A program made the translations under genes and the position numbers. The notes beneath the pieces were generated by a model. That model worked only from the letters and a program-made list of their open reading frames with translations, was not told where the DNA came from and searched no databases. A stretch of DNA of 20,088 nt from a virus: positions 1-20,088 of the IMG/VR virus record IMGVR_UViG_3300034198_001850. One strand, 5' to 3'. Position 1 is the stretch's first letter, and each line of letters begins with the position of its first letter. Positions 81-20,088 of the stretch are shown here, in pieces.

Positions 81-88
81 TATTTATC
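81..88 (-). promoter_or_regulatory. T4-late-promoter-like box GATAAATA
   Basis: On the minus strand the sequence reads CGGATAAATATAC, 18 bases before the ATG at 63 and overlapping the TAA stop of the upstream fibre gene. It matches the T4 late consensus TATAAATA at 7 of 8 positions. The same string CGGATAAATAT occurs upstream of the gp13 gene at 4456-4463 with nearly the same spacing to its start, which argues against chance. Confidence 0.55.
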
Positions 89-3023
89 CGCCAAAAACCA
101 TCGACATGGCAATTGCTTTACCAGTGCTCGCTGGCTTGATTCCGCCTACAAACACTGTTGTTCCGGCTTGTCCAATGTTAATTGTACCTGTAACACCGGC
201 ACCTACGTTTAGTATACCACTAGTTACGTTGGTTGTTATTGTAGCTGTACCACTAGTGCCGTTACCATATACGCTTAAGATGTTGTTGTAAGTAGGATTA
301 CCTAAAATCCAAGTTGTAGCACTGGCCGCGCTGGTCGCTACGTTGATGCTAGTTGCCGCACTGTACTCGTTTACAGTAGTTGCGTTGCTGGTAGCATGGT
401 TAAATGTAGTACCAGATGCTACGATAGCCGGGGTATTAATGTTAGTGGTAGCTAGGAATGTAGCTGTCTTGATAGTACCATAAGTACCACTTGAGAAGGT
501 GTTACCAGATTCTGTACCATTTACAAACCATTCTAGATAGTTTGTTGCATTAGATAATACCAGAGCGGCATTAAGATCAGCGCCGTTATAGTAGTGGAAT
601 CGTAAACCGATATCCTTACCATCACTCGATCCCCATGTTCCACCTACGCCACCTGTTGGTGCATGTAGCTCGATCAAGTTGTCAGTGTAGACTGTGTTGT
701 TACCTTGAACGTATGTTGTAGTACCGTTGAATGTGGCCGTTCCTGTAACAGTCAAGTTACCTGGAACGGTTACGTTACCAGCACCAGTACTTGAAATTGC
801 CAGTGTACCTGAGTTATCAGTTAGAGTGACTGTACCAACTGTGATTGAACCAGGACCAACATATAGACTTCTCCAACGTTTGCTAGGACTACCCAGGTCA
901 TAGGTAATGTCAGTTGCTGGTGCAATAGTTTGATAACTTGCACCTAAGAATGTGCGTACCGCACGTTGAGTCGGAACTTTTGTATCCGAGTTTTGACTTA
1001 TTGTACCGTCTGTTGAAAATTCATCTACTTGTGCGCCAAGCTGTGCGCCGATTGAACCTAGTTTCAAACTGGTCAAACCGCTCAAATTAAACGCTGACGC
1101 ATTAAGTGTTGCGGCACCAGTTGCTTGGTTAACACTAAAATATTGACCTACACTAAAATTACCATCTTGGTCGGTGGCCACATAGTAAACACGACCCGGT
1201 AGTGCGTAGACTGTTTGATTAGCAGGTGTCGGGCTTTGACTTGGAACGCCAGGATAGTTAGTAGTAGCAATACTACCAGTACCAATACTTAGGAAATCGT
1301 GTCCAGTTAGTCGTACCTGACTAAAGTTGTAGCGAATTTGCAGTGCATTTCCGTCTACGCTTGGAGTTGTTTTTTGTCCTGCTAGTGTAACTGTAATAAC
1401 GCTACCGGTATTGATCCAACTGCCCGACACTGCTTGGATAACATAAGCGCCACCTGAATCAGCACCGTTAGTAAACTGTAAACTTGCACCAACTGTTGGT
1501 GCCGCTGTTAGACTGCTAAGGACCAGTAGGTAGTTTGATTGACCAGTTGCCGCTGTTACTGTAGCTGTTGCGTTACTTGTGCCGCCAGTAATCACGTTGG
1601 TTCCGTTAAATGTTCCGCTAACGCCCTTGTAATAAATGTAACCTGTTTGTACACTAGTTACAGTACCAGTTGCATTGCTGGTTGCCTGAGTAATTGTTTC
1701 ACCAACTTGGAATGACCCAGATAATGTTGCTGTGTTGATAGTCAACATGTTACCATACACGGTACCAGTTACTGGCGATTCTGTAGTGTCATATCCTCTT
1801 GATACTGCACCATACTGTCCGTATGAGTTATTACCTGATAGTGAACGAATCTTACCACCACCTGTAGTAGCATAGCCAAAATAGCAATAGTAGGTAAACA
1901 CTGAAACTGCTTCAACACGACCGCCGTCTTTGGCCCATAGACCAACACCTAGGTCTAGTATACAGTTGTAAGCCCAGAATACAATACTCTTGTTGCCACT
2001 TGCTTGTACGCTTCCGTCGACAATAGCACCAACACCGCCTGAGCTTTGTGCTGTACAATCTTTAACATAGGGACTTTTTGTAATCGTTGACGCAGGATTG
2101 AGACGGAAATATACCCCGCCTATCGTTGCCTGAGTAATATCGTTTGCAGGACTGCCGGCAGTAAAACCAGTCATACCTGTTAATAACAATCCCTGTACCA
2201 TGCTTTGGTCGCTGAGCAAGAACATAGTACTTAGATTATTAAGTACTGGACTAGCATCTAAACTTCTAAACGTAAATGTCAGTGTTCCGCTTGGTGTTGT
2301 ATCAGGACTTGCTGAAATAATCAATGTATTACTATCAACTACAGTTGAAACTTTTTGTCCGCTAGTGAAACCTGTACCAGTGATAGTCATTCCAACTTGA
2401 ACACTAGCGGTGTTGTTGACTTTTAAGGTAGTTCCGCTCGATCCGCTAGCAGTGTAAGTTGCAGTTGTTGTAGCTGTTTTTGGTAAAATCTTAGTATCAC
2501 GCATGCCGTCACCGATAACACTAACGTTAGCTGGAACTGTGATAGGTAATGTTTCTAAGTAGTTACCGGCTTTAACGTAAATTGTTGCTGGACCTGATAC
2601 TGTTGCGCAGGCCTTTTGTAAACTGGCCCATGCATTGTTCATGCTAGTACCCGAGTTAGTATCTGAACCTTCTGGAGTTACATAAAATACAGCACCAGTT
2701 ACATTAGGGTATGCCCAACTAGGAACACCACTTGCTACTGTTAATACTTGACCGGTTGAACCAACTGCTAGTCTCTGATTTGAACTAGCACCATAGTAGG
2801 TAATGTCACCTGTAGTAGTATTCGAGTTTTGACCTTGTGCCATTATCTGCCAATCTACGGCAGCTAGGTCTGTGGCCCAAGTTCCTGAAGTATGTGCAAC
2901 TACGCAGATATAGCTTGATCCGCTAAAGCTGACAGCATCGTTAATCTGATAAGCAGTACTGGTTGTCCAAGCACCGCGCCAGTTAACTCTTAGTTTTCCT
3001 AAATTTATTGTGGTTATACTCAT
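84..3023 (-). CDS. Long tail-fibre-like protein with beta-helix domain (979 aa)
   Basis: This is a probable long tail fibre or tail-spike-like adhesin. Near the N-terminus (about residues 10-64) lies a Trp/Tyr-rich module (WRGAWTTSTAYQINDAVSF) like a small carbohydrate-binding module. It is followed by a 'GDITYYGASSNQRLAVGS' module seen in many fibres. From about residue 110 to 430 a right-handed beta-helix is likely: it starts VFYVTPEGSDTNSGT, contains IYVKAGNYLETLPI and VSVIGDG (pectate-lyase-like rungs), and ends with GGKIRSLSGNNSYGQYG. Residues about 190-250 hold a VGM-type repeat module. From about 567 a cassette starting [10 protein letters not shown] is shared with the giant protein at 12501-20088. 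The C-terminal third contains VYTDNLIELHAP, DIGLRFHYYNGAD and NYLEWFVNGTESG, familiar from fibres of T4-like aquatic phages. It follows a 199-residue fibre protein by 22 bases. The ribosome site is weak (GGATC). No catalytic residues were identified, so depolymerase activity is not claimed. Confidence 0.85.
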   Translation of the reverse strand: MSITTINLGKLRVNWRGAWTTSTAYQINDAVSFSGSSYICVVAHTSGTWATDLAAVDWQIMAQGQNSNTTTGDITYYGASSNQRLAVGSTGQVLTVASGVPSWAYPNVTGAVFYVTPEGSDTNSGTSMNNAWASLQKACATVSGPATIYVKAGNYLETLPITVPANVSVIGDGMRDTKILPKTATTTATYTASGSSGTTLKVNNTASVQVGMTITGTGFTSGQKVSTVVDSNTLIISASPDTTPSGTLTFTFRSLDASPVLNNLSTMFLLSDQSMVQGLLLTGMTGFTAGSPANDITQATIGGVYFRLNPASTITKSPYVKDCTAQSSGGVGAIVDGSVQASGNKSIVFWAYNCILDLGVGLWAKDGGRVEAVSVFTYYCYFGYATTGGGKIRSLSGNNSYGQYGAVSRGYDTTESPVTGTVYGNMLTINTATLSGSFQVGETITQATSNATGTVTSVQTGYIYYKGVSGTFNGTNVITGGTSNATATVTAATGQSNYLLVLSSLTAAPTVGASLQFTNGADSGGAYVIQAVSGSWINTGSVITVTLAGQKTTPSVDGNALQIRYNFSQVRLTGHDFLSIGTGSIATTNYPGVPSQSPTPANQTVYALPGRVYYVATDQDGNFSVGQYFSVNQATGAATLNASAFNLSGLTSLKLGSIGAQLGAQVDEFSTDGTISQNSDTKVPTQRAVRTFLGASYQTIAPATDITYDLGSPSKRWRSLYVGPGSITVGTVTLTDNSGTLAISSTGAGNVTVPGNLTVTGTATFNGTTTYVQGNNTVYTDNLIELHAPTGGVGGTWGSSDGKDIGLRFHYYNGADLNAALVLSNATNYLEWFVNGTESGNTFSSGTYGTIKTATFLATTNINTPAIVASGTTFNHATSNATTVNEYSAATSINVATSAASATTWILGNPTYNNILSVYGNGTSGTATITTNVTSGILNVGAGVTGTINIGQAGTTVFVGGIKPASTGKAIAMSMVFGG
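2270..2460 (-). repeat. VGM-type fibre repeat module in the 979-aa fibre
   Basis: The translated segment runs SGSSGTTLKVNNTASVQVGM, then TITGTGFTSGQKVSTVVDS. It shares the pattern 'GTTLxV...VxVGMxITGTGxxxGxxV' with modules in the giant fibre (17862-18084 and around 19180-19660) and in gp15 (7314-7530). It is probably a small beta-sandwich unit inserted in the beta-helix. Boundaries are approximate. Confidence 0.55.
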
Positions 3024-6034: not shown

Positions 6035-7770
6035 TGCAATTTTTCTATGACGGACAGATAAGACGTTACATCACACAGACTATTCGTGTGTTTAGTAATT
6101 TTGTAGTCAAATACGGAGACGGAACTCTTCATCGCATACCGGTCATGTACGGAGATCCTGATCGTGCCGTAGCTAGCATCATACGTAATAACTCAGAAAA
6201 CAAAGCTATGAGTGTGCCACGTATTTCCATCTATGTTAAACAACTTAGTTTAGATCGAGATCGCACTAGTGATGCTACATTTGTTAGCAAAATGCATTTT
6301 CGTGAAAGAGATATTGACACTACTGGACAGTCCTATACTCATGGGCAAGGACGTAACTATACTGTAGAACGTCTAATGCCTACTCCATTTAAACTTGATT
6401 TTACAGTTGATATATGGACCAGTAGCACTGAACAAAAATTGCAAGTATTAGAGCAAATCTTAGTCTTGTTTAATCCAAGTTTAGAACTACAAACTACTGA
6501 TAATTACATTGATTGGACCAGTTTAACTGTTCTTAATCTAAACGGCATTACTTGGGACAGCAAAACAGTGCCAGTTGGAAATGATACTCCGCTTAGTGTT
6601 AGTTCTCTCAGCTTAGAAACCCCAATTTGGATCAGCCCGCCTGTTAAGGTTAAACATCTTGGTGTTATTACTAAGATTATTACCAGCTTATGGGGCGCCA
6701 CAGATACTAGCCCAGTCGGTTATATTGAAGGTCTTGGTGAAGATCTAGCTGGTCCAACTGGAACTCCTGGTTATTCAGATTTACTAGCTCAGGAAATTAC
6801 CACCATTACTGACTATACTCTACAGGTATATAACAGCCAAGCTATAATTCTAAGCCCTACAGAGGGATATATTCCACGTGAACCTACACTGGATATTCCC
6901 GTTAGACAAGGGCAACCAATAGACTGGCACAATGCTATCAACTTGTATCCTGGAAAATTTACAGCAGGTTCGAGCAGACTCTATCTAGTACAAAGTAATG
7001 GTGCAGAAGTTGTAGGAACAGTGGCTATTAATCCTGCTGATTCAACACTACTACTAGTAACTTGGGATCCAGATACTCTAGTTACTAACACAGGTATCGA
7101 CAGCAATGGTATTTTTGATTATGAAGTAGGTTATACAGCACCTGCTTATCGAAACGGTCAAACAGGTAGTCAGGGTAGTCCCGGAACATTTGATGCTATT
7201 ATTAATCCGCAGACCTTTGTGCCAGCTGCCGCAGTTGCTGGAACACGATATCTAATCATTGAAGACATTGGGTCAACTGCTAATCTTGTAGACAGTCAGT
7301 GGACTACATCAAACGGTATTACTATAACAATGTCAGGTGCTTCAATTAATGGCACTACACTAACTATTAATGGACTAATATCTGGTCAAATCCAAGTAGG
7401 TATGTATCTAAGTGGCACTAATGTTTTGCCGGGAACTCGTATCACTGATGGCAATGCTAGAACTTGGACTGTAAGTAACACACATGGCTACGGTGGCGGT
7501 ACAGGATCACAAACTATCACCGGCTCGTTTGTTGGTCAGCCTGCTACTAACTACGCTACTGCATGGGGACCGTTGGTAGCAAAAGCTAACGACATTATAG
7601 AATATACTGGCACTCAATGGAAAGTTATATTTGCACATGCTCAAGAAACAACTACTATGGTATGGCAAACTAATATATACACTGGGGTTCAATACAAATG
7701 GAATGGAATTTCATGGGTTAAGAGCTTCGAGGGAGAATATACGCCAGGATCATGGAGACTAGAACTTTAA
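6034..7770 (+). CDS. 15: Tail completion and sheath stabiliser protein gp15-like (578 aa, extended)
   Basis: In T4, gp15 forms the hexameric terminator that caps the tail tube and contracted sheath and binds the neck. Residues 1-215 follow T4 gp15 in order: FFYDGQIRRYITQTIRVFSN (T4 GYFYNSSFRRYATLMGDLFSN), HRIPVMYGD, VPRISIYVKQL, RLMPTPFKLDFTVDIWTS, LQVLEQILVLFNPSLEL, and SLETPIWISPPVKVK (T4 'VNGWMYPPV'). T4 gp15 is 272 residues, so the remaining 360 or so are additional: a linker, a domain around residues 275-375, then GTRYLIIEDIG and the terminal region ending KWNGISWVKSFEGEY and WRLEL. A fibre-type repeat (about residues 427-499) interrupts this last region. Its start overlaps the gp14 stop by one base, with AAGGG about 11 bases upstream; its last 19 bases overlap the oxygenase gene. 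Confidence 0.82.
   Translation: MQFFYDGQIRRYITQTIRVFSNFVVKYGDGTLHRIPVMYGDPDRAVASIIRNNSENKAMSVPRISIYVKQLSLDRDRTSDATFVSKMHFRERDIDTTGQSYTHGQGRNYTVERLMPTPFKLDFTVDIWTSSTEQKLQVLEQILVLFNPSLELQTTDNYIDWTSLTVLNLNGITWDSKTVPVGNDTPLSVSSLSLETPIWISPPVKVKHLGVITKIITSLWGATDTSPVGYIEGLGEDLAGPTGTPGYSDLLAQEITTITDYTLQVYNSQAIILSPTEGYIPREPTLDIPVRQGQPIDWHNAINLYPGKFTAGSSRLYLVQSNGAEVVGTVAINPADSTLLLVTWDPDTLVTNTGIDSNGIFDYEVGYTAPAYRNGQTGSQGSPGTFDAIINPQTFVPAAAVAGTRYLIIEDIGSTANLVDSQWTTSNGITITMSGASINGTTLTINGLISGQIQVGMYLSGTNVLPGTRITDGNARTWTVSNTHGYGGGTGSQTITGSFVGQPATNYATAWGPLVAKANDIIEYTGTQWKVIFAHAQETTTMVWQTNIYTGVQYKWNGISWVKSFEGEYTPGSWRLEL
7314..7530 (+). repeat. VGM-type fibre repeat module embedded in gp15-like protein
   Basis: The segment contains GTTLTINGLISGQIQVGMYL, SGTNVLPGTRIT and, after a Gly-rich stretch, SQTITGS. 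The same order ([31 protein letters not shown], then [16 protein letters not shown]) occurs in the giant fibre at 17862-18084. It lies between two parts of gp15 that look continuous without it: GTRYLIIEDIGS before, and NYATAWGPLVAKANDIIEY after. Confidence 0.6.
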
Positions 7771-8276
7771 AATATCAAGTAATTGACAATTTTTTGTCAC
7801 CGGAATCACTGAAAAAACTTCAGGATGCCATGCTTGAGATTACCTGTACAAATCCTATCCCCTGGTTTTATAGCAGTAGCGTTGACTATATTGATCCTGC
7901 TAACGATTACCTAAATAATTTCCAGTTTACTCATACATTTTATATAAATGCTAGGCCATGTAGTGATAGATTTCATTTATTAGAAGAAATGCTGTTTAAA
8001 CTTAAACCGGCTGCGCTAATTAGAATCAAGGCTAATCTACAAACTGTTACTGAAAAAAGAATTACACATAAATTCCATGTGGATGTTGAAAATATAAAAT
8101 GTAAAACTGCAATATTTTATGTAAACTCTAATGACGGAGTCACTATATTTGAAGATGGAACAGAAATAAACAGCGTGGCCAACAGACTAGTTTGTTTTGA
8201 TTCTGATATTAAACACGTAGGTACCAGTTGTACTGATCAAAAAGTACGCTGTGTAATAAATTTAAATTATTTCTAA
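7752..8276 (+). CDS. 2-oxoglutarate/Fe(II)-dependent oxygenase, phage type (174 aa)
   Basis: This is a probable non-haem iron dioxygenase of the prolyl-4-hydroxylase-like double-stranded beta-helix group, which couples 2-oxoglutarate decarboxylation to substrate hydroxylation. The metal triad and co-substrate residue can be placed: H109-V-D111 in THKFHVDVENI, the distal H155 in SDIKHVG, and R166 in KVRCVINLNYF, 11 residues after the distal His as expected. The core strands AIFYVNSNDGVTIFEDG and NRLVCFDSD lie between. The N-terminus (YQVIDNFLSPESLKKLQDAM) is the typical lead-in. Length is normal for small phage versions. The start overlaps the gp15 gene by 19 bases, with AGGA only three bases upstream and GGGAG 16 bases upstream, so translation may depend on coupling. 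The substrate is unknown: a virion protein, a host protein or a nucleic acid base are all possible. Confidence 0.8.
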   Translation: METRTLKYQVIDNFLSPESLKKLQDAMLEITCTNPIPWFYSSSVDYIDPANDYLNNFQFTHTFYINARPCSDRFHLLEEMLFKLKPAALIRIKANLQTVTEKRITHKFHVDVENIKCKTAIFYVNSNDGVTIFEDGTEINSVANRLVCFDSDIKHVGTSCTDQKVRCVINLNYF

Positions 8277-8277
8277 T

Positions 8278-8718
8278 ATGGAAACATCAGAAAAAATCAT
8301 CTGTAGTGGAGCATTATTTTATGCTAAGTCTACAGGCAGGATTTTGTTGCTTCAAAAAGCCACAGGTAAACACGAAGGAACTTGGGGGCTAGTTGGCGGT
8401 ACTACAATTGAAGGTGAAACTCCCTGGCAGGGACTTCAGCGTGAAATAGTTGAAGAAATTGGTCATTGCCCTACAATAATTAAAACAATACCTCTTGAAA
8501 CATTTGTGTCAAATGATACTGTGTTTAATTTCCACACATACTTGTGTGTGATTGATGAAGAATTTGTACCTACTCTCAGTGATGAGCATAGTGCTTGGGC
8601 TTGGGCTATAATAGATAGAGCTCCAAAGCCCCTACATCAAGGGCTAAGGAATAGTTTCTCAAATAAAATTATTCGTACTAAACTTCAGACTGTGTTTGAT
8701 CTAATAGATTTAATATAA
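8278..8718 (+). CDS. Nudix hydrolase (146 aa)
   Basis: This is a pyrophosphohydrolase acting on nucleoside diphosphates linked to another group. A complete Nudix box is present: G41-x5-E47-x7-R55-E56-x2-E59-E60-x-G62, read from GGTTIEGETPWQGLQREI followed by VEEIGH. The upstream beta-strand ALFYAKSTGRILLLQKATG and the W-G-L-V-G entry to the box are typical. Length is normal for a single-domain enzyme. The ATG is one base after the oxygenase stop (TAATATG), with no separate ribosome site, so translation is probably coupled. Substrate (mutagenic dNTP, ADP-ribose, capped RNA, ppGpp) cannot be assigned from sequence. It is the last gene before the convergent block. Confidence 0.88.
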   Translation: METSEKIICSGALFYAKSTGRILLLQKATGKHEGTWGLVGGTTIEGETPWQGLQREIVEEIGHCPTIIKTIPLETFVSNDTVFNFHTYLCVIDEEFVPTLSDEHSAWAWAIIDRAPKPLHQGLRNSFSNKIIRTKLQTVFDLIDLI

Positions 8719-9067: not shown

Positions 9068-9349
9068 TTAACTTCCCAATACTGGATTACCAGTTAGTGG
9101 CTGTTTATTTAAGTTTTCGACAACATCGTAATGTGCGAAAATGGCCACTGCCCAGTCGGGTAGTTGATTGATAGGTTCGTTAGCAGGTCTAATATCGTCT
9201 TCGCCTTCTTTAAATTCAATCCAACCTTTGTTGGTTGCAGAATTAAATTGGAGTGCGTGAACATTAGTAGGAGCTCCAGATACATCAACTTCTAGAGCAC
9301 TTCCATTCTTATATGCTAGTTTGTCTTCAATAATTATTGTATGTCTCAT
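9068..9349 (-). CDS. Small collar-associated protein, paralogue 1 (93 aa)
   Basis: Function is not established. It is paralogous to the 85-residue protein at 9915-10172: both start with a short strand and an AY motif (DKLAYKNGSALEVDV / DQTAYINNVPLVVEM), then VHALQF or IHALQF, then GWIEF, an acidic patch, RP, and LPDWA or LPSWA. Each copy lies immediately downstream of a collar-domain gene, which suggests a dedicated assembly partner (chaperone or adaptor) for that collar protein; this is inference from position. The C-terminus (DVVENLNKQPLTGNPVLGS) differs from the paralogue. AGGAA lies about six bases before the ATG, and an exact late-like TATAAATA lies 16 bases upstream. Confidence 0.65.
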   Translation of the reverse strand: MRHTIIIEDKLAYKNGSALEVDVSGAPTNVHALQFNSATNKGWIEFKEGEDDIRPANEPINQLPDWAVAIFAHYDVVENLNKQPLTGNPVLGS

Positions 9350-9364
9350 AATATTTCCTGTTGA

Positions 9365-9372
9365 TATTTATA
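9365..9372 (-). promoter_or_regulatory. T4-late-promoter-like box TATAAATA
   Basis: The minus strand reads TATAAATATCAACAGGAAAT and then reaches the ATG at 9349. This is an exact match to the T4 late consensus, followed by a ribosome site. It lies in the short gap after the collar protein stop at 9375 and would give the last two genes of the block their own late start. Confidence 0.6.
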
Positions 9373-9374
9373 TA

Positions 9375-9902
9375 TTAGTTTCTAGACGCTATAATAGTGT
9401 CTACATATTTAACTCTGAGGTCAAAAGTGCCACCGCTAAAGCTCAAACTTAATCCATGATTATGACTACCGCCGCCGCCCTGGCCTAGAATATTGCGGCC
9501 TGCGCCATAGTTAGGGTCGTTAGCTGAATAACCACCAGCGTCACTACCTACGCCGTGTGTTTGCCCGTTACTTTGTGTACCTGTTCTGTTATTATCGTCT
9601 ACTGGATAAGCAGAGCACCAATGTGCATGGCTAGGAATATTGTTAGTATCCAAAGTAGTTGAACCAGATCCTGGATTACTAACAGATCCTGACCAAGTTT
9701 GATTAGCCCAAACGGAACTGTAAGCCACACTGCCTCCATTACCCACACTGCCTGATACGATTCGCAATGCATGATCACCAAATGTGTTTACTTTAGACCA
9801 ATCACTAGTTGGAGCCGCTGTTTGTTGGAATACAATAGCAGTTCCGCTTGCAAATGCGTCTACTGGTACTCCGCCGATTGTTGAACTTTGTAGGGTTGCC
9901 AT
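9375..9902 (-). CDS. Collar-domain short-fibre protein, copy A (175 aa)
   Basis: This is a probable receptor-binding or tail-tip protein of the phage collar family, related to the C-terminal part of short tail fibres. The N-terminal half has the family order: GTAIVFQQTAAPTSDWSK, FGDHALRIVSGSVGNGGS, then NNIPSHAH. Two His-x-His pairs (H92/H94 in IPSHAHW and H147/H149 in GSHNHG) are placed as in trimeric fibre proteins that coordinate metal along the trimer axis; T4 gp12 and gp37 are known cases. The stretch between the pairs (DDNNRTGTQSNGQTHG, DPNYGAGRNILG) is the part that differs most from copies B and C and is the likely binding surface. The ribosome site is modest (AAGAG). It is the third collar gene in the transcript. 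Confidence 0.78.
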   Translation of the reverse strand: MATLQSSTIGGVPVDAFASGTAIVFQQTAAPTSDWSKVNTFGDHALRIVSGSVGNGGSVAYSSVWANQTWSGSVSNPGSGSTTLDTNNIPSHAHWCSAYPVDDNNRTGTQSNGQTHGVGSDAGGYSANDPNYGAGRNILGQGGGGSHNHGLSLSFSGGTFDLRVKYVDTIIASRN

Positions 9903-9914
9903 GTTTAATCGCTC

Positions 9915-10172
9915 TTAGTTATATGTTTCGCCTGCTAGCTGTTTCCATTGATATCGTTTAATGATATCAGTTGCCCAGCTTGGCAGTTCTGTTATATTTA
10001 AATTATCTGGTCTCTGATAGTCGCTATTTTCGACAAATTCAATCCAGCCTATACTGCGGTCTGTATCAAACTGTAGAGCGTGTATGCCTGTAGGTACTTG
10101 AGACATCTCCACTACTAATGGAACATTATTAATATATGCTGTTTGATCGTTGACTAACACAGTAAATTTCAT
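9915..10172 (-). CDS. Small collar-associated protein, paralogue 2 (85 aa)
   Basis: Paralogue of the 93-residue protein at 9068-9349, with the shared core TAYINNVPLVVEM, IHALQF, SIGWIEF and LPSWATDI. Its acidic patch and C-terminus (KRYQWKQLAGETYN) differ, and it lacks the extra tail of the longer copy. It sits five bases after the stop of collar copy B and 12 bases before the start of copy A. No Shine-Dalgarno-like sequence is visible before its ATG (an A/T-only run), so its translation probably depends on ribosomes leaving copy B. A role as partner of the neighbouring collar protein is inferred from the repeated arrangement only. Confidence 0.65.
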   Translation of the reverse strand: MKFTVLVNDQTAYINNVPLVVEMSQVPTGIHALQFDTDRSIGWIEFVENSDYQRPDNLNITELPSWATDIIKRYQWKQLAGETYN

Positions 10173-10177
10173 TTTAA

Positions 10178-10702
10178 TTAATTTTTTGAAGCTATAATAC
10201 AGTCAACATATTGTACAGCAAGATTGACTGCGTTACCAGATAGTGATACACCGACTGACGGGTGACTATGACTGCCTCCCGATCCTGTCCCTAGTCCATA
10301 TCGTCCGTTACCGTAGTTAGGATCATTAGGTGTATAACCACCAGCGTCTGATACTACTCCGTGATTTTGGCCGTTGCCCGAACTACCTGAGAAATTGTAG
10401 TCGTCAATGTTGGATGCTGAGCACCAATGAGCGTGGCTGGGAATTTGATTAGTGGCCAGTGTCATTGCACCGATGTTAACCGTGCCAGACCCGCCTACTG
10501 CTTGTGAAGTAAAGCAACTACTAAATGCCACACTGCCGCCTGAACCCACTGTGCCATTAACCACACGCATGTGGTGATCGCTGTAACTAGCTGATTTTGT
10601 CCAACCTGTTGGAGCTGTTGACTGCCTAAATGCCATGGCAGTTCCCGAGGGCAACGCTATTACCTTTACGCTATTAACTGTTGATGCTTGTAACTGTGCC
10701 AT
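10178..10702 (-). CDS. Collar-domain short-fibre protein, copy B (174 aa)
   Basis: Second of three tandem collar-family paralogues. It shares with A and C the segments SGTAMAFRQSTAPTGWTK, HMRVVNGTVGSGGSVAF, NQIPSHAHW and VQYVDCIIASKN. His pairs are present in IPSHAHW and in GSHSHPS. The variable middle reads DDYNFSGSSGNGQNHG and DPNYGNGRYGLG. The N-terminus MAQLQASTVNSVKVIALPSG parallels MATLQSSTIGGVPVDAFASG in copy A, so A and B seem the closest pair. The start has a good ribosome site (AAGGAAAAAAC before the ATG). The downstream small gene follows within five bases. It probably forms a trimer at the tail or baseplate periphery and binds a host surface glycan, by analogy with the family. Confidence 0.78.
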   Translation of the reverse strand: MAQLQASTVNSVKVIALPSGTAMAFRQSTAPTGWTKSASYSDHHMRVVNGTVGSGGSVAFSSCFTSQAVGGSGTVNIGAMTLATNQIPSHAHWCSASNIDDYNFSGSSGNGQNHGVVSDAGGYTPNDPNYGNGRYGLGTGSGGSHSHPSVGVSLSGNAVNLAVQYVDCIIASKN

Positions 10703-10711
10703 GTTTTTTCC

Positions 10712-11239
10712 TTAGTTTAAGTAGGCAATAATATGGTCTACGTAGTTTACAGCTAGGTTGAATGAGTTGCCGCCAAAACTAGCACTGATCGAGCCGTGAT
10801 CGTGTGCGCCACTGCCACCTTGCGCTAACATGTAGCGGCCGTAACCGTAGTTAGGGTCATTTGATACATACGGTGGAGCATCAGACATTAGACCATACAT
10901 CTGGCCGTTACCGCCCGTACCTGTCCAATTGTTATCATCAGTCGGTGCTCCTGAATACCAATGTACGTGACTTGGAATTTGATTAGTTGCCAGTGTTGTA
11001 CTTTGTGTACTACCACTGATACTACCTGATACAGTGAACCCAGTGTATGCTGAAGTAAAAGCCACACTGCCGCCTGCGCCAACTGTTCCATTAACTACAC
11101 GAACAGCATGATTATCGTATGTAGTGTCTTTAGTCCAGCCAGTTGGAGAAGCTGTCTGGTTGAATAAGCAACGAGTATTAGACGGCCATGCTGTAATAGG
11201 ATTGCCGCCTGCTGTTGATCCAGTGACTAGTGATGCCAT
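10712..11239 (-). CDS. Collar-domain short-fibre protein, copy C (175 aa)
   Basis: Third paralogue and first of the three to be transcribed. Shared segments are NQTASPTGWTKDTTYDNHAV, RVVNGTVGAGGSVAF, NQIPSHVHW and VNYVDHIIAYLN. His pairs are in IPSHVHW and GAHDHGS. The middle differs most from the others: DDNNWTGTGGNGQMYGLM and APPYVSNDPNYGYGRYMLA, with more Trp, Tyr and Met. Unlike A and B it has no small partner gene after it; copy B follows directly after nine bases. Its ATG overlaps the stop of the S74 protein by one base (TAATG), with AAAGGTAAG upstream, so it may be translationally coupled to that chaperone-containing protein. Confidence 0.78.
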   Translation of the reverse strand: MASLVTGSTAGGNPITAWPSNTRCLFNQTASPTGWTKDTTYDNHAVRVVNGTVGAGGSVAFTSAYTGFTVSGSISGSTQSTTLATNQIPSHVHWYSGAPTDDNNWTGTGGNGQMYGLMSDAPPYVSNDPNYGYGRYMLAQGGSGAHDHGSISASFGGNSFNLAVNYVDHIIAYLN

Positions 11240-12132
11240 TATTTCTTACCTTTTAAAAAATCAAGTTCGGCTTTTAGTGCCTTAACGCTTTCAATTAAAA
11301 ATGCAGTAACTTTGGTATATTGGATACCGTATGGTTTGCCGTGTTCGTCTAGTGTGACTAGCTCGGGTGCTATCTTATAAACATCTTCAGCAATTAACCC
11401 AACTTCGCTTTGCTTGTGACCATCTTTACGATCATAGGTAACGCCCATCATGCTTAATACCTTGTCTAAAGGATTAACCAAAGGTTGTACATTTTCTTTA
11501 AATGCGATGCTAGATGTTTCAACTAGACCAACGGTGTAAATCGTACCGTTAACACCAACGCCGCCACCGATCAATACTGACTGGCCTGATGTTGCAAGAG
11601 TACCTTGTGTAATATCAGTAGTGACAAGTGTTGTAAAACGGCCGGTGGCTGCTGTTGTCGCACCAATACTAGTATTATTGATAGTACCAGCAACCGTAGC
11701 TGGAGCTATAGTCAAACCGCCAGTTGGACTAATTGTAACACTTGCACCACTTGGACTTAGTGTAACAGTTGAACTAGCTGTTAGTGTTGTAGCACTTACT
11801 GGTCCACCTGAACCTAAAACCACTGCATAAGTATTGCCGTCTGATGCTAGGATCGTAGTATTACCAGAACCTAAAACATAAGTGTTACTCGATCCAGTTT
11901 GTCCAGGACCTTTAAAGTATTGACCCGCTGTGGGAGTAACTAATGAAACGCTACCGGAAGTATTGTTCCAGAATGTTTGTGTAGTACCTAAATACAGTGT
12001 TGGATCCGGTAGTGTAATAGTATATCCGCCAACACCTGTAAATTCTGTAAATTGACCTGTGCCTGGTGCTGGAATTGTAGTTACTGTTCCAGTATTAATC
12101 GTTGACGTTACTACGGTATTATAACGAGCCAT
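11239..12132 (-). CDS. Fibre protein with C-terminal S74-type intramolecular chaperone/peptidase (297 aa)
   Basis: The last 91 residues form an S74-type intramolecular chaperone, a trimerising domain that helps a beta-rich fibre fold and then cuts itself off. The catalytic Ser-Lys pair fits S207 and K212 (SSIAFKENVQPL, Lys five after Ser, as in endosialidase-type domains). It is followed by LDKVLSMMGVTYDRK, SEVGLIAEDVYKIAPELV, YGIQYTKVTAFLIES and a helical C-terminus ALKAELDFLKGKK. The first 200 residues are a low-complexity beta-rich shaft with TLPDPTLYLGTTQTFWNNT, an SVTLSPSG-type repeat and INNTSIGATTAATGRFTTL, a common fibre unit. The shaft is short compared with large S74 spikes. GAGAG lies upstream of the ATG. 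It is transcribed before the three collar genes and may also help neighbours fold, but S74 domains usually act in cis. Confidence 0.85.
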   Translation of the reverse strand: MARYNTVVTSTINTGTVTTIPAPGTGQFTEFTGVGGYTITLPDPTLYLGTTQTFWNNTSGSVSLVTPTAGQYFKGPGQTGSSNTYVLGSGNTTILASDGNTYAVVLGSGGPVSATTLTASSTVTLSPSGASVTISPTGGLTIAPATVAGTINNTSIGATTAATGRFTTLVTTDITQGTLATSGQSVLIGGGVGVNGTIYTVGLVETSSIAFKENVQPLVNPLDKVLSMMGVTYDRKDGHKQSEVGLIAEDVYKIAPELVTLDEHGKPYGIQYTKVTAFLIESVKALKAELDFLKGKK

Positions 12133-12500: not shown

Positions 12501-15500
12501 TTATTTCTGACCAAAATACCAAAGTGCTACTGGTGCTCCGTCGACGCCGCCGCCTCCTGGAGTAATACCAGCACCTCCACCACCTGCAAAATACATCTTT
12601 GATCCCACGTATATTTGCGTTCCGTTCGTATTACTTATCGTATTACCAGCTATATAAATCTGGCCTGCTGTAATGGTATTTACGTTTAACACGCTTTGTC
12701 CACCACCAATTTGGGCTGTAATATAGCTCTTAATAGCTTTTTGTGTTGGTAATATGTTGTCGCTGTTAGCAGTAAAGTAAGGATCTGTACTAAATTGTGT
12801 AATAGTAGCTGATCCAATACCCAATGTTACAGCACCGAGTGTCAACGATTGTAGTCCAGCTAGGTTAAATGCACTAGCATTTAATGTAGCAGTACCAGTT
12901 GACTGTTGAACTCCAAACAAATTACCAACGTTGAAGTTACCGTCTTGGTCAGTACTTGTAAAGAACACACGCCCGCCACCGTTTGGATATGTTTGGTTAG
13001 CCTGTATTGCTGTGGCCGCATTAACATAAGGATAGTTAGTTTGTGTTTGGTTTCCAGTACCGATATACAAGAAGTCATGTCCTGTTAGGCGAACCTGACT
13101 ATATTTTAACCTTGTAGTAATAAGTGTATTATGTGCTGGTGCTAGTAGTGTTGTCAATGCCGGATTAACTTGGAATTGTGCTGTGTAGTTACCAGCTGTG
13201 CCCAACTGATTAGTAATAGCCACTAGTTTATACCACTGACTTGTACCAGTAATTGTTGCAAACTGTACGTTTGCTCCAGCTTGTGGAATACTAAACAATC
13301 CAGACACATTAATATATGCTGAATTTTGATAAACATCTGAGAAACCGTCGCCTAGTGTAGTTGCTGTAGCAGTGGCATTATTAGTACCTCTGTTAATGAA
13401 ACTTGGATTACCTAGGGCGCCGTCACCCATGCGCACACGTAGCGCCGCAGTGTTTACACGATTTGGATCAATTTGTGTAGGTATAGGACCTGCACGATAT
13501 ACTGCCGTTGACGATGTACCTGTTGATAGTGTTACTGCTGTAGTGCTACCTGCTGATGCAGTAACACTGAACTGTGTGCTAGTTACAGATGAACCAATTA
13601 CATAGTAAGTTGTATTAGTAACTAGACCAACGCTATCTAATCCAGTAAATTCTATTGGTTGATTGTTAGCTAAACTCGTTGACAAGTTTGTAGTATCGTC
13701 TGCTGTGATCAAATTAGTTGATACAGTGGTAGCAGTTACGTTACCTTTTGGATATCCACTGCCTGGTTCAAGAACCCGTAGTTCGGTAACTATACCGCCG
13801 GCTGCCTTCATACGTCCCAAAGTAGTTGCGCCAGTTCTAATACTTGCGGCTATTGTTCCACTTGTAGCACTTACTCCAACAAACAATGGTTGCGCACCGA
13901 TCGTTGAACTTAGCACGTTACCAAATGTGATTGAAGTCCATGCTGAACTGCTTGGCATAGCTCTTACAGTCCAGTTAATACCATCTGGACTTGTAGCACA
14001 AACAGACGTACCACTTGCTATGGCAAAGAACAATCCTTGACCATATGTTAGTCCTGACCAAGTCAAACTAGAACTTAGAACGCTAGTAGTTGTTCCAGTA
14101 CTGTTTGGAACTGCTGTCCATCCAGCAACTGCTGGACTTGAAGTTCCGCCATTATTAATACTGTAGGCAAGTTTTCCGTCTGATCCTAATACAACAAAGC
14201 GTCCGTTACCGTAGGCAACTGCTATTGCACTAGTAAATCCTGAAGGTAAGTTAGCACCTTGTGTCCATGAAACTGCATTATTAGACCAGCTAGTAACTAG
14301 GCCGCCGTTATTAACAGCCATAAATGTTCCAGTGGTAGCACCAGTAGCACCATAACATATCGATGAATAGTAACCTGCGCTTAGTGCAGATATCGATCTT
14401 GAAATCCAGTTAGCTGAGTTTGTTGGACTTGAACTTGATGCCGCTGTTGCTGTGCCGCTTGCGCCACCTACTGCAACATAAAGTCCGTTGCCATAAGCAA
14501 CTGATCTTAGATTAAGCACCGCAATAGTTGTACCAGTGATAGCAGTCCACGCTGAATTTAAACCAGATGCTGTATTATAGGCAATCTGTGTACCTGTGCT
14601 AGCATTATTAGCTACTGCTAAAAATACCGCAGTAGTATCCAGAATAGTCACAGCCGGTACTGCGGTATATCCGTACCCGTTTACAGTCAGTGCTATTGCA
14701 CTTACTCCACCGTTGGTAATAGTTGAACTTACTTGTGCTTGAGTAGCGATATAAGTTAATTTGGCTGTACCGTTAGTTACGTTAGTATAGGTTGTACTAG
14801 TATAATCAAATGCTGGAGTAACTGAAGCATCTGTTGTACCTGCTTGAGTTACTTGATAGATCCTTCCAGCAGTAGTTTGGATATATGCATTTAAACTAAC
14901 TGAAGTATTCAAAGCAAATGCTGACGGTGTTAATCCTTGTGGTTGATCGATAGTAATCTGTGGTGAGCCTGGATAGTTCCTACCCCACGCATTAACTGTC
15001 ACGCTGGTCAATGCACTAGTAACTGCTGTCACAGTCGGTGTACTTGAGTAACTGCTACCATTGATAGTCATTGTTACTGATTGAATTACACCATTTAGTA
15101 CGGTACATGTTGCAGTTGCTCCAGAACCACCGCCACCGGTAATTACAATAGTTGGGGCAGTGGTATAGTTGTAGCCACCGCTGACAACAGTAATACCTAC
15201 GATCTGGGTAGCACTTCCGCCAGTGCCAACTATTGCTGTAAGTACTGCGCCCTGTCCACCAAAACCACCTACTACTGCGGTTGCTCTTGCGTTTTGGCCG
15301 CCTCCATACACTAGACTTTGCCATGTTGTGCTTGCTGGTAATACTCCACCAGCTGACCATGTTTTACCATCTACTGAATAGCTAGTTGTAGTGCTACCAC
15401 TTGCAATAGCCGCATAACGTTGAGCTCCATAAGTTACTGCTGACCAAGTTGCTGTACCGATTAAGCTTCTAACCGTACCAGGATTATAACCTGGACTACT

Positions 15501-18500
15501 GTAGCTAATTCTAGGTTCAATAATATATGTAGTTGTTAAGTCTGTTGTGTTGGCAAGACTTGTATTTGCAATTACTTGAGGAACAGTATGATCCCAACCA
15601 GCGGCAAACATTGCTGTGCCAACTGTACCGGTTACACTTACACTTCCTGTTGCTGTGATAGTTACAGCGGTGCTAGTAAATGGTGTGGTTGATATTGAAA
15701 AAGTTGTCGGTGATAAGTTTGCTGCCACAATATAGTAAACGGTGCTAGCATCAACTCCGTTAAACGCACTATTAAATGTGATAGCGTTACCTGCAGCCAA
15801 TACTGAAACTGTAGCTGTTACAGTTAATCCAGTTGTTGTACCTATACTTAATGCTGTACCGCCCGGTGTTAAGGAAATACTTAAACTTGTACCTGAACTG
15901 GCTTGTACATAATATGTTGTGCCTGCTCCTGCTGTACCAACCGCGCTGGCAAATGATATTGGTGCACCAATAGTTAAACTTGCACTGGCACTTAATGTAA
16001 TTGTTGATCCGCTACTTGAGTTTACAGTTACAGTAGTTGCTGTAGCAGTTAATAAGTTATTAGTAATAGCTGTTGCTGTCACTGATATAGTAACTGATGC
16101 AATATTTGAACCAACTGTTACTGCTGTACCGCTACCGCCACCAGTTAAACTCAATTGAAACTGTGTACTGCTAAAGTTTGCTGAGTTAACATAGTAAACT
16201 GTGCTGGTCGCTAGTAGTGTACTAAATGCAGTGTATACTAATACCGGCATACCTGCATATAAGTTAGCAGTGCTAGCCACTGTAAACAAGTTATTTGTTG
16301 TTGCGGCAGAAGTAATGATTAATGGAGCAACTGAATCTTTAACTATGTTAGCAGTTTTACTACCGTTTGAATAGGTTAAAATATTAGCATACTGTCCGAC
16401 TCCTGTACCAGCAGTAAGTTGTATGCGCATACCCACATACGCACCGGTTAGTGCTGTATCAGTATTAGCGATTACAAACTGGCCAATTGGTCCACCTGTG
16501 ATTGATGCATTACTCTGTCCTGTGTTAGCTGTTGATACGTAGCTCGATCCGCCAACGCCTTTGCTGTCGTTAAGGTCGATCAATCGTGTTTCAAACAAGG
16601 CCGCATCTCTGTATTCGTCTTGTGATGCTTGAGCATTATAACCACTACCGCTAATTGTAGGTACACTATTAGTGTAATTGGATCCAGCGTTAGAATATTC
16701 TAAACGTAGTATTTGACTTGTAGCATCTGTAACTACGTTTGTGATTAGTGCTTGATTGTATCTGTTGTTTAAATTAGCGTAGATTGGTGTTTCAAATGTA
16801 TCAACACCTTCGGCTAGTACACCGTATGTACCATATGATGAGTTACCGTTAGTAGCACGGATCTTACCACCTAGTTCACTTAGGTAACCAGCATAACCAT
16901 AGTAGTTAAACACTGAAACTAATTCAGCAAGAGCATTAGAACCAGTTACCCAGTAACCAATGCCGTCACCTAAAATTGTTGTATAGTCGTTAGCAACCAT
17001 TGAACGGTTACCACCGTTATGCAAGGCTCCGTCTACTTTTGCTCCTACTGCGGCATAACCGAACATAGTACAGTTTTGTGTATAACAACTTCTTGTACTA
17101 ATCCATGAGTTGCTGTCGTTTGGTCCGTATCCTGGATCAAGACTAGCGTATGCACCACCTGTTGGTCGTTTTGTACCAAAGCTATTTGCTGAACCTAATG
17201 TACCTGTAATACCGTTTAAGGTCATGTTGCGTAGACCAGTACCGTTGCGCACTTGATACATGTTTTTAGCTGTTGATCCGCTGACTGCATTATTGTATAA
17301 TTCTACAGCTCGCATCATTTTATAATTGCCTGGATACTGGATATCGTATATGAGAGCGTTAACAAACGATGTTGTATCACGTAAGCATGATGCTGTGTTA
17401 TAATAGTAGGTTAAGGTAGCAGTACCGTTACCAGCAACTGCCGTTAGCACACTCTGTGTTCCTTGTCCAGATTGAATAGGACTTAAAATTACTGAAGTTG
17501 TTGAAGGAGTTGACAGTACATAGTAAGGTGTAAGTGTTGATGCTCCACCAAAAATACCTCCAAATGATGCAGTTAGTGAACCAGTTGTTGTAGCTCCAGG
17601 AGTAAACAATGATCCGTTGTATGTAGTACTTAATGTAACAGTAGTTCCGCTAGCACTTAACACATAATAAGTACCAGACGTTAATGTACTGATGCTACCA
17701 CCGCTTATTAGCACCTGCATGTTTACTAGAATGCCTGTTGTAGATCTAACAGTAATATTACCGTTAGTATTTGTGCCGGTAATAGTTGTAGTAGCAGTAG
17801 TAGCAGTAAATTGCACAGGGTCACCTACACTTAAATTATGAGCTGATACTGTACTAAACAAGTTGCTAGTGCCTGTAATAGTTGTTGCTGAACTTACAGA
17901 TTGAGCAGTGCTGATTGTGTAATTACCAGCTCCTCCTGTACCAGTTCCTAATGCTGTAATGAATGTTCCTGGGGTTACACCGTTACCAGTAAGTACCATA
18001 CCTACAACAAACGTACCTGTTACTGATCCGCCAATTGTAAGTGTTAGACCGCTGATAGTACTTGAAGTGCCGCTGGCAGTTGTTGTATTTGATGATTGAT
18101 AGTAAGTACCGCCATATGTGGCTGCTGTGTAAGCACTGGCTTCATAAGCTAAAAAGTTAGTATTAGCACGTAGTACTTCAATACCCTGTATTGTAGTACG
18201 TGTATTATCGTAAGTTAATGAACCACATGTAGTAGCAAAACTACTCACTGATCCAGTTGAGTTACTAATACCTGCTGTTGCAGTGGCTGTCATACTTGTC
18301 ACAGTATTTTGTATTGTGTAAGCTGAACCATTAAATGATGTGCTAATAGTTAGTGTTGTTGTACCAGGAACACTGGCAATGTAATATACATTGTTATTCC
18401 ATAAATTGGCAGCATTATTAACAATGGCATTCATAGTAGAAGCCGGCGTAACGTTGGCCAATGCTACTGCACTTCCGCCTGCTGTTAAACTAATTTGTAT

Positions 18501-20088
18501 AGTACTTGCTGACGGATTGATTACATAATACATTTGATTTGGTACGATAGGATAAGCCACTGTACCTGTAAAATATATCTGTTGGCCGGCTACGATTCCT
18601 AAACTAGTGGCTGTGGCGGGCAAGTTAATTAAGTTTGTGCTAGCTGTTGTACTTGAAACTGTGGTTGTAATGTTTGCAGGTAGCCCAGTAAAGCTGATAG
18701 GCATGCCAACTACCATATTAGTTGTACTTGTAACTGTTAACAAATTAGTACTTGTAGTCGCAGTTGTTAGAGTAGTAACTTTTTGTCCATAAATGGTTTG
18801 TACTGCATCATTAATAATAGTTTGCGCACGGATTACTGAGCCGCTGGCGGCGATTGCTTTAACCTTGTATGCAATTAAATTGATAGCACCAACTGTAGCA
18901 TTTAATTCTTGTATAGTATTGGCTAGTAAGGCTTGAGCACTAGCATTGGATCTATTAAATGCGCGGCCAATTACAATAGCATTAAAGTTACTGCTGAATA
19001 AAATATCCCAAGCTAAACCAGCGGAAATTAAACCAGCATCTCTATTGCTTAATGTTTGGCTAATAGGATATGCTTGATAGAATTTTGTCACAAACACCTG
19101 TGCGTCACTAGCAATTTCACTATTACGTGCAACCACTTGTGTATAGGCAGTCTGTAACGCTGTACTTGAGACAAGTGCGTATGCTCCACTAGCTACAGGA
19201 GTAATCGTTGCATTACCTGTTAGAGTTGTACTCGATACCGTTTGACTTACACTAACTGTATACGTACCTGTTCCACCTGCTGTATAAAAGTTGATGGTAC
19301 CACTTGGGGTACTTACAAAATTGTTTGGATATCCAAAATAGTTTACTAGAGTAATTGTTGTGCCACTTGTATATGTTGAAATAACATAACTACCTGCTGG
19401 AATGTTTGTACCAGTTACAAATTGCCCTGCGACAATACCAGTTGCACTACCAACTACAAATGTGTTTGTACCGCCTGCACCACCGCTTGAATATGTTGGG
19501 CTTGCTACTGCTGTAACACCTGTGAGTTGATTTACTAGATATGTTGGAGTAGTCACACCAGTACCAGTAATTAACATTCCAGGAACTAATACGCCGCTGG
19601 TTACCGCAGTCACAGTCATTGTTGTGCTTGATGCGCCAATTGATCCAGTCACAGACGGTGTGCTAGAATTAGCGGCGCCATTCTGTATCCAATAGATAAC
19701 GTCTTGTATACGAGCCGATGCAAATGATGCTGATGATGCACTACCTGCTGTGCCTGACGTTACTTGTGCGATTGTATAAGGTGCAGTTTGTGAACTAGTC
19801 GTTACACTAGTAGCTGTCACAACTTGACCAATAATCGCTGAAAGACGCTGTAGACCAGCCACAGTCGCGGCTTGGTTGGCGGTAGGAATTTGATTAATGT
19901 TTAAAGAATAGTAACTGCTACCATTGATAATGCTTTGATTATTACAACCGTAGGCCATATCATATTGCAAGCCATCTAAAATATATCCGATAGTTTGTAA
20001 GGTAGATATTTGTGTAGCACTTCCAAATGCCGACCATGCAGAGCTATAGTTTACATTCAAGAAATTAGCAACTTCGCCTTTGATAAAA
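12501..20088 (-). CDS. Giant tail-fibre-like protein, 5' end outside window (at least 2,528 aa)
   Basis: One uninterrupted frame fills 7.6 kb and remains open to the right edge. The first possible start (TTG at 20060) is preceded in frame by F-I-K-G-E-V-A-N-F, so the true start lies outside. From N to C: a helical region with three diverged copies of a 'D-I/M-x5-N' unit ([15 protein letters not shown] near 19960, [18 protein letters not shown] near 19000, [18 protein letters not shown] near 17330) separated by VGM-type repeats; a beta-helix-like stretch around 16770-17400 ([38 protein letters not shown]); low-complexity repeats; a probable beta-propeller at 13830-15446; a [10 protein letters not shown] cassette at about 12700-13098 shared with the 979-residue fibre; and a Gly-rich end finishing [11 protein letters not shown]. 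No enzymatic motif is visible. This is probably a major host-recognition fibre. Confidence 0.85.
12700..13098 (-). repeat. Shared fibre cassette, giant-protein copy (second copy at about 930-1326)
   Basis: Both copies contain [16 protein letters not shown], then GRVxxxxTDQDGNF, then [16 protein letters not shown], then LG and FSTDxxxxxNSD and PTQxAxxxxx. The giant protein reads [17 protein letters not shown] and [17 protein letters not shown]; the 979-residue protein reads [17 protein letters not shown] and [17 protein letters not shown]. Sequence after the cassette is unrelated: a short Gly-rich end in one and about 280 further residues in the other. Confidence 0.75.
13830..15446 (-). other. 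Probable seven-bladed beta-propeller domain inside the giant fibre
   Basis: Seven successive segments start with a hydrophobic strand ending in YG or FG, followed by an 'F/Y-x-A/V-V/I' strand and often S-x-D-G-x-x-W: [23 protein letters not shown] (split), [58 protein letters not shown] and [16 protein letters not shown] and SPDGINWT resemble Asp-box turns of sialidase-type propellers. No catalytic sialidase residues were recognised, so glycan binding is more likely than cleavage. Confidence 0.6.
14631..15296 (-). other. 222-residue insert splitting propeller blade 2
   Basis: Blade 2 begins WQSLVYGGG and its expected continuation [20 protein letters not shown] appears 222 codons later. Between lie different modules: [32 protein letters not shown] and [12 protein letters not shown] (a repeated 'GxxYxxxPxxxI' motif), then [20 protein letters not shown] and [10 protein letters not shown] (a separate fibre unit), then [13 protein letters not shown]. 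Boundaries are judged from the blade pattern. Confidence 0.5.
17862..18084 (-). repeat. VGM-type repeat module in giant fibre
   Basis: The module reads [40 protein letters not shown], then [20 protein letters not shown]. It is the best visible match to the module embedded in the gp15-like protein at 7314-7530. The shared order is L-T-I-x-G, V-G-M, T/S-G-x-x-V-x-P-G-T, and a terminal T-I-T-G. Confidence 0.6.
19277..19515 (-). repeat. In-frame 231-bp nested repeat insertion with 8-bp flanking direct repeats
   Basis: On the minus strand TACAGCAG occurs at 19515-19508 and again at 19284-19277, exactly 231 bases (77 codons) apart and in the same codon phase. The 77 residues between (starting [12 protein letters not shown], ending SGTINFY) include a [20 protein letters not shown] unit. 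Removing them joins [20 protein letters not shown] to [19 protein letters not shown], which restores a continuous VGM-type repeat. Confidence 0.6.

Follow-up and report, generated by a model that had tools for sequence, protein, structure and literature searches.

A predicted seven-bladed beta-propeller split by a nested domain in a giant fibre protein of an uncultured T4-like phage

Interrupted propellers and the fibre gene

Beta-propellers interrupted by whole domains are already known. In the SU10 nozzle protein, blade 1 is extended by the fibre dock and the nozzle domains come in at the boundary of blades 2 and 3 (PMC9509320), and in the seven-bladed propeller of integrin alpha an I domain, present in some members only, adds ligand binding (PMC12422189). 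Propellers also occur in phage host-recognition proteins, with five blades in the phi11 RBP (gp45) and seven, as in the locus described here, in PhiKZ gp131C; a nested insert is mentioned for neither in the part of that source available to us (PMC4901313). A small beta domain at the C-terminal end of the beta-helix tailspike of cyanophage Pam1 (7eea) has been proposed to recognize polysaccharide (PMC9382816). A closely similar fold is predicted in the locus described here, there as part of a propeller insert.

This locus lies in a 20,088-nucleotide stretch of DNA (IMG/VR virus record IMGVR_UViG_3300034198_001850, hereafter the window), in which a giant fibre frame is predicted to contain a seven-bladed propeller. 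Like the SU10/T7-type nozzle, it would be a phage tail protein with a seven-bladed core broken by inserted domains. However, the nozzle is a hexameric tail-tube part with Ig-like inserts and no sequence relation to the fibre was seen, and whereas its inserts enter between blades 2 and 3, the insert of the window falls within blade 2 itself, where it parts strand a from strand b, in the AF2 (AlphaFold2) model. The integrin I domain is likewise different, being a vWFA domain between blades 2 and 3 of a protein with no sequence or host relation to this one. Literature searches did not find this propeller and insert architecture described, that is, an insertion inside a blade a-b hairpin of a phage fibre, affecting two blades across relatives and carrying a further nested module.

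The fibre gene and its conserved part are located as follows:
12501..20087 (-): open frame of a giant tail-fibre-like protein, 2528 aa in the window, 5' end lost at the contig end
12711..13121 (-): conserved fibre segment (...TDQDGN) common to Kyanoviridae fibres and a 979-aa fibre of the window

A near-identical contig (L002/L140) carries the entire gene, 3651 aa counted from the start codon, with 10 mismatches between L002 and the fibre frame of the window in 7588 bases; the window covers residues 1125-3652 of the complete fibre in a numbering that starts one codon earlier. The frame matches PHROG 9851 (tail fiber protein, E 6.7e-64) through its conserved C-terminal segment, and in tblastn it resembles Kyanoviridae tail fibres (Pelagibacter phage Mosig, Synechococcus S-CAM1 and others). 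Together with a neck protein whose nearest counterparts belong to large phages (Atu_ph07 and PA5oct, for instance), these likenesses indicate that the source is an uncultured T4-like myophage. The stretches that flank the propeller region are shared with tail fibres of Kyanoviridae, Mosig gp63 among them (42% and 40% identity), but Mosig gp63 itself is without a propeller. One deposited model, BFVD A0A6J7WHK8_3 from an uncultured Caudovirales phage (47% identity, TM 0.80, whole query including the insert), is a member of the same family deposited as a prediction, and its annotation, 'ChiC_BD domain containing protein', is an automatic domain name only.

Several other genes of the window were also observed. 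The 979-aa second fibre (84-3023, minus strand; PHROG 9851, E 4e-196) shares two paralogous segments with the giant fibre (42% and 35% identity). A 297-aa protein adjoining the giant fibre (11239-12132, minus strand) carries, towards its C-terminal end, an intramolecular chaperone domain of the Peptidase_S74 family (E 1.6e-10). At 9068-11239 (minus strand) three paralogues of 174-175 aa, 53-55% identical and with HNHG/HSHP-type collar-like ends, are interleaved with two paralogues of 85-93 aa (45%), in a pattern suggestive of gene-pair duplication; none of these matched in a Pfam search. At 7752-8718 (plus strand), between tail genes, are a NUDIX protein and one with a weak likeness to 2OG-Fe(II) oxygenases.

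Predicted fold of the propeller and its nested domains

A sequence-only reading of the window had proposed a probable seven-bladed propeller at 13830-15446, with blade 2 split by a 222-residue domain at 14631-15296. Residues 1530-2102 of the window's fibre (P0001) were modelled with AF2 from an alignment of 55 homologues (pLDDT 89.3, pTM 0.83), and the following features were assigned:
13836..15485 (-): whole seven-bladed propeller with its insert (P0001 6-555; AF2, VIA-align)
15450..15485 (-): strand at the N-terminus (P0001 6-17) that would close blade 7 as its fourth (DSSP order)
15351..15446 (-): blade 1, strands a-d (blade HMM, AF2); its a-b hairpin is the module site in the L087/L121 group
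15303..15323 (-): blade 2, strand a, WQSLVYG (AF2, joined-halves scoring)
14628..15302 (-): inserted domain, 225 aa (P0001 67-291), in the a-b hairpin of blade 2 (AF2; folds alone)
14538..14627 (-): blade 2, strands b-d, restarting at VFLAVANN (blade HMM, AF2, joined-halves scoring)
14397..14510 (-): blade 3 (blade HMM, AF2)
14259..14372 (-): blade 4, with a longer a-b turn (AF2; weak HMM match, 6.0 bits)
14097..14231 (-): blade 5, with a longer c-d loop and, in some relatives, a canonical Asp box (HMM, AF2)
13944..14063 (-): blade 6, with an SPDGINW turn (blade HMM, AF2)
13836..13940 (-): blade 7, strands a-c (AF2; the HMM sees the first 8 positions only)

The predicted strands follow one another as seven blades in sequence, each with strands a-d except blade 7, which is without a fourth strand. 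VIA-align superposed the model on virginiamycin B lyase (2z2o; Z 31.0, 285/295 residues, rmsd 2.4) and on a '7-bladed designer protein' (7big; Z 26.8, 278/286 residues), both alignments covering it from residues 1-9 to about 558, and ribosome-associated, G-protein and designed propellers scored nearly as high as the best match. Strand order and structural alignment thus agree on a closed seven-bladed propeller in the model, and the predicted fold was neither open nor of another blade number. All seven YG/FG blade starts were recovered on the minus strand (residues 1553, 1594, 1865, 1912, 1959, 2015 and 2055), two further such motifs (FG 1609, YG 1805) lying within the insert. The proposed interval held for the seven blades and fell short at its N-terminal limit: the propeller should begin near 15485, because the strand at P0001 6-17 would supply the fourth strand that blade 7 lacks. 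Judging from strand order in the model, blade 7 seems to be closed in velcro fashion by this strand.

A blade HMM trained exclusively on uninterrupted propellers of other phages recovered blades in their order along the chain: blades 1 and 3 to 6 were found, as were the b-strand half of blade 2, which follows directly on the insert, and the first part of blade 7. Its top scores were 56.6, 26.3 and 20.2 bits, and the best among 200 shuffles reached 6.6; blades 4 (6.0 bits), 2b and 7 each fall inside the shuffle range when taken alone and rest on the structure model. When the two halves of blade 2 were joined in a script, as the reading had suggested they would join, the median score over 51 members was 14.7 bits (12.3 for the window), compared with 2.8 when the second half was shuffled. 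Pfam matched neither the whole window fibre nor the propeller region, a PDB sequence search with P0001 returned nothing significant (best 0.24), and tblastn of P0001 against 50,697 phage records gave no match. Over 55 members, Pfam returned EPTP in 8 (best E 5.6e-7), DUF6242 and otherwise only stray weak matches, none of them to an enzyme family.

The insert lies between strand a2 (P0001 60-66) and strand b2 (292-297) in the model, so that its place was correctly read and its limits were slightly off. Predicted in isolation it reached a pLDDT of 96.4, and since it folds alone it would be a separate Gly-rich domain of its own that splits blade 2, and no eighth blade. The split seven-bladed propeller was in this way confirmed at the level of structure prediction. 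The insert had been described as a string of GxxYxxxPxxxI units; four such units are present, yet they do not make up the whole, as a CBM5/12-like module is embedded among them:
15141..15179 (-): GxxYxxxPxxxI unit 1, 13 aa
15024..15062 (-): GxxYxxxPxxxI unit 2, 13 aa
14949..14984 (-): GxxYxxxPxxxI unit 3, 12 aa
14742..14930 (-): embedded module of about 60 aa, CBM5/12-like or Pam1-tailspike-tip-like, optional in the family (VIA-align)
14643..14681 (-): GxxYxxxPxxxI unit 4, 13 aa

Inserts of all 48 members examined matched PHROG virion profiles (virion structural protein, head closure, baseplate wedge), and these matches to assorted virion proteins indicate that the GxGY unit is a common phage building block. 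The GxGY part had no good match among solved structures (best E 1.1; Z < 3 among the matches listed), and the insert profile had none among PDB sequences; as matches to the embedded module took up the list, we do not read this as a new fold. Mean pairwise identity was 0.57 in the GxGY part and 0.52 in the propeller.

The embedded module aligned best with the Pam1 tailspike (7eea, residues 586-641; Z 8.6, rmsd 1.4, 56 residues, 23% identity). Over 46-48 residues it also aligned with CBM5/12 folds, namely the C-terminal module of a Vibrio chitooligosaccharide deacetylase (Z 6.5) and the C-terminal domain of ChiB (4.5), and T4 capsid proteins matched it as well (Z 4.8). Of 48 members, 36 have it, and the other 12 have a loop of 11 residues in its place. 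Proteins of CBM family 5/12 bind sugar through an aromatic surface pair of WW type. The module of the window is without tryptophan, so that this sugar-binding pair is absent; in 38 members no WW pair was found (WY inside a strand segment occurred in six), and no CBM profile was among the Pfam hits of 48 members at E <= 1. On the absence of tryptophan and of a profile match, we describe the module as resembling CBM5/12 in its predicted fold and do not count it as a sugar-binding CBM. Tandem CBM5/12-like stem repeats (W..ST.Y...D.V.Y.G..Y) were also observed at the N-terminus of the complete fibre (residues 18-270 of L140/L002), and by sequence they are of the same general module kind as the one nested in the insert.

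The SxDGxxW turns of the propeller had been taken as a sign of glycan recognition. We set this argument aside, because these are structural c-d turns of Asp-box type and such turns are a signature of the fold. The 51 members contain 127 motifs of the short form (SxDGxxW) and 20 of the canonical form, for shuffle means of about 0.2 and 0.015; the window propeller has the short form alone (SVDGKTW and SPDGINW). Despite these turns, the propeller is on profile evidence not filed as a BNR member, the expected Pfam profile (PF02012) being unmatched by the window protein and matched by 1/55 members at E 0.095. Asp-box propellers include the sialidases, in which the Asp-box turns lie on the face opposite the active site. 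Propellers normally have their a-b loops on the same face as their c-d loops, and together with the strand order this would put the insert on the side of the Asp-box-type turns. Sequence variability was also considered as a marker of a binding face and dropped, as the loop entropies were nearly alike (a-b 1.31, c-d 1.60, b-c 1.71, d-a 1.56) and named no face.

States of the fibre site among relatives

Scans of IMG/VR recovered relatives in which the same site of the fibre occurs in four states. The insert in blade 2 is found in the window and about 70 loci. A second group (L087, L095, L108, L110, L111, L115, L117, L119, L121, L124, L132, L134 and L138) has a different module of about 90 aa, placed in the a-b hairpin of blade 1 by sequence and HMM hits, and an uninterrupted blade 2. 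Where the window has its insert, L087, L095 and L097 have 9 residues. The bare state is seen in L126, with seven uninterrupted blades between the same flanks, and in more diverged form in L127-L131, where the HMM misses some blades. In L136 the propeller is missing altogether: the flanks TFSTPAGDG and IRAIGRAKV are all but joined, with tblastn matches on both sides. Bare seven-bladed propellers of about 370 aa were also observed as three or four adjacent genes in L090-L094 and L099.

These states were mapped on a tree, with a bootstrap that is not fully settled, built from the downstream part of the fibre, a stretch free of the trait itself. The blade-2 state forms a single clade (47 rows, support 100/99), which suggests a single origin of this insert. 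Counts of change, which do not separate gain from loss, were four for the blade-1 state (single clade rejected, p 4e-6), three for the bare state (single clade not rejected, p 0.16) and three for the presence of the embedded module, at least two of the latter being required by well-supported branches. The blade-1 module is clearly akin to a stand-alone module near residue 500 of the complete fibre, in its N-terminal part (44% identity, E 2e-14), so that a donor exists within the protein family. Comparison of the blade-1 insert with the blade-2 insert, to see whether a single domain had moved from one blade to the other, gave E 0.10 in blastp. With layers absent or located elsewhere in relatives, the fibre seems to be put together like nested boxes.

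Possible roles of the propeller and its nested domains

By prediction and comparison, the seven blades, the insert site, the nesting and the optional layers are strongly supported; the orientation of the disc, a trimeric fibre, surface exposure and receptor binding we infer. The explanation that we favour, and hold to be reasonably probable, is that the disc is a rigid side platform from which nested domains reach the cell surface, and that disc or module binds host polymers. The seven-bladed disc would be a cassette set in the fibre chain. The compact Gly-rich beta-domain would project from this disc at the turn that joins strands a and b of blade 2, on the face of the Asp-box-type turns, and would bear the small CBM5/12-like module. 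The nested domains would lengthen the reach of the platform, and the other face of the disc, the projecting module, or both may bind the host-surface polymers; modules could be swapped or lost at tolerant turns with the propeller core undisturbed. The propellers of other phage receptor-binding proteins, the Pam1 domain and the patchy distribution of the layers all support host-surface binding, and receptor binding by the propeller or its insert is plausible.

The conservation of the GxGY part, at least equal to that of the propeller, is unlike a fast-evolving receptor-binding tip and fits more easily with a structural role. The lack of the aromatic pair in the window's module also speaks against the explanation that we favour. 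Propeller and nested inserts could be spacers that widen and stiffen the fibre or link neighbouring subunits, and receptor binding would then fall to other proteins, such as the one with the S74 chaperone, the collar-like ones or a different fibre. The GxGY units match virion proteins, those of head closure and the baseplate wedge included, and CBM-like repeats make up the N-terminal stem, so that both modules may be no more than ordinary structural parts. The structural matches of the embedded module also include T4 capsid proteins. A chitin-binding-like insertion in a T4 capsid protein bridges neighbours and stabilises the capsid (PMC3185693). However, the fibre of L136 is without a propeller and inserts shift or disappear among relatives, for which a variable accessory or recognition role is the easier explanation, and we regard a spacer role as rather unlikely.

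A role as an enzyme appears improbable; the propeller would then be, for instance, a lyase or glycosidase that trims polymers on the host surface, with its active site positioned or covered by the insert. Virginiamycin B lyase is among the closest folds and sialidases are among the Asp-box propellers, but propeller fold matches are blind to function, ribosome-associated, G-protein and designed propellers being matched nearly as well, and no enzyme family was found by Pfam. The suspicion that PhiKZ gp131C is a cell-degrading enzyme (PMC4901313) would also fit such a role.

For the platform that we favour, the relatives suggest how it may have been assembled. Possibly, though we hold this with less than even confidence, the fibre was built by repeated in-frame nesting, with layers gained and lost separately and the a-b hairpin acting as an insertion hot spot that changes binding. 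If true, a propeller would sit in a fibre loop, Gly-rich domains in the hairpin of blade 1 or blade 2 according to lineage, and a CBM5/12-like module inside these. The relatives form a natural series, from no propeller through a bare propeller, a blade-1 insert and a blade-2 insert to an insert within an insert. With such a series one can test which turns of a propeller accept whole domains, and whether host recognition in large freshwater and marine phages may be retuned by swaps of nested modules.
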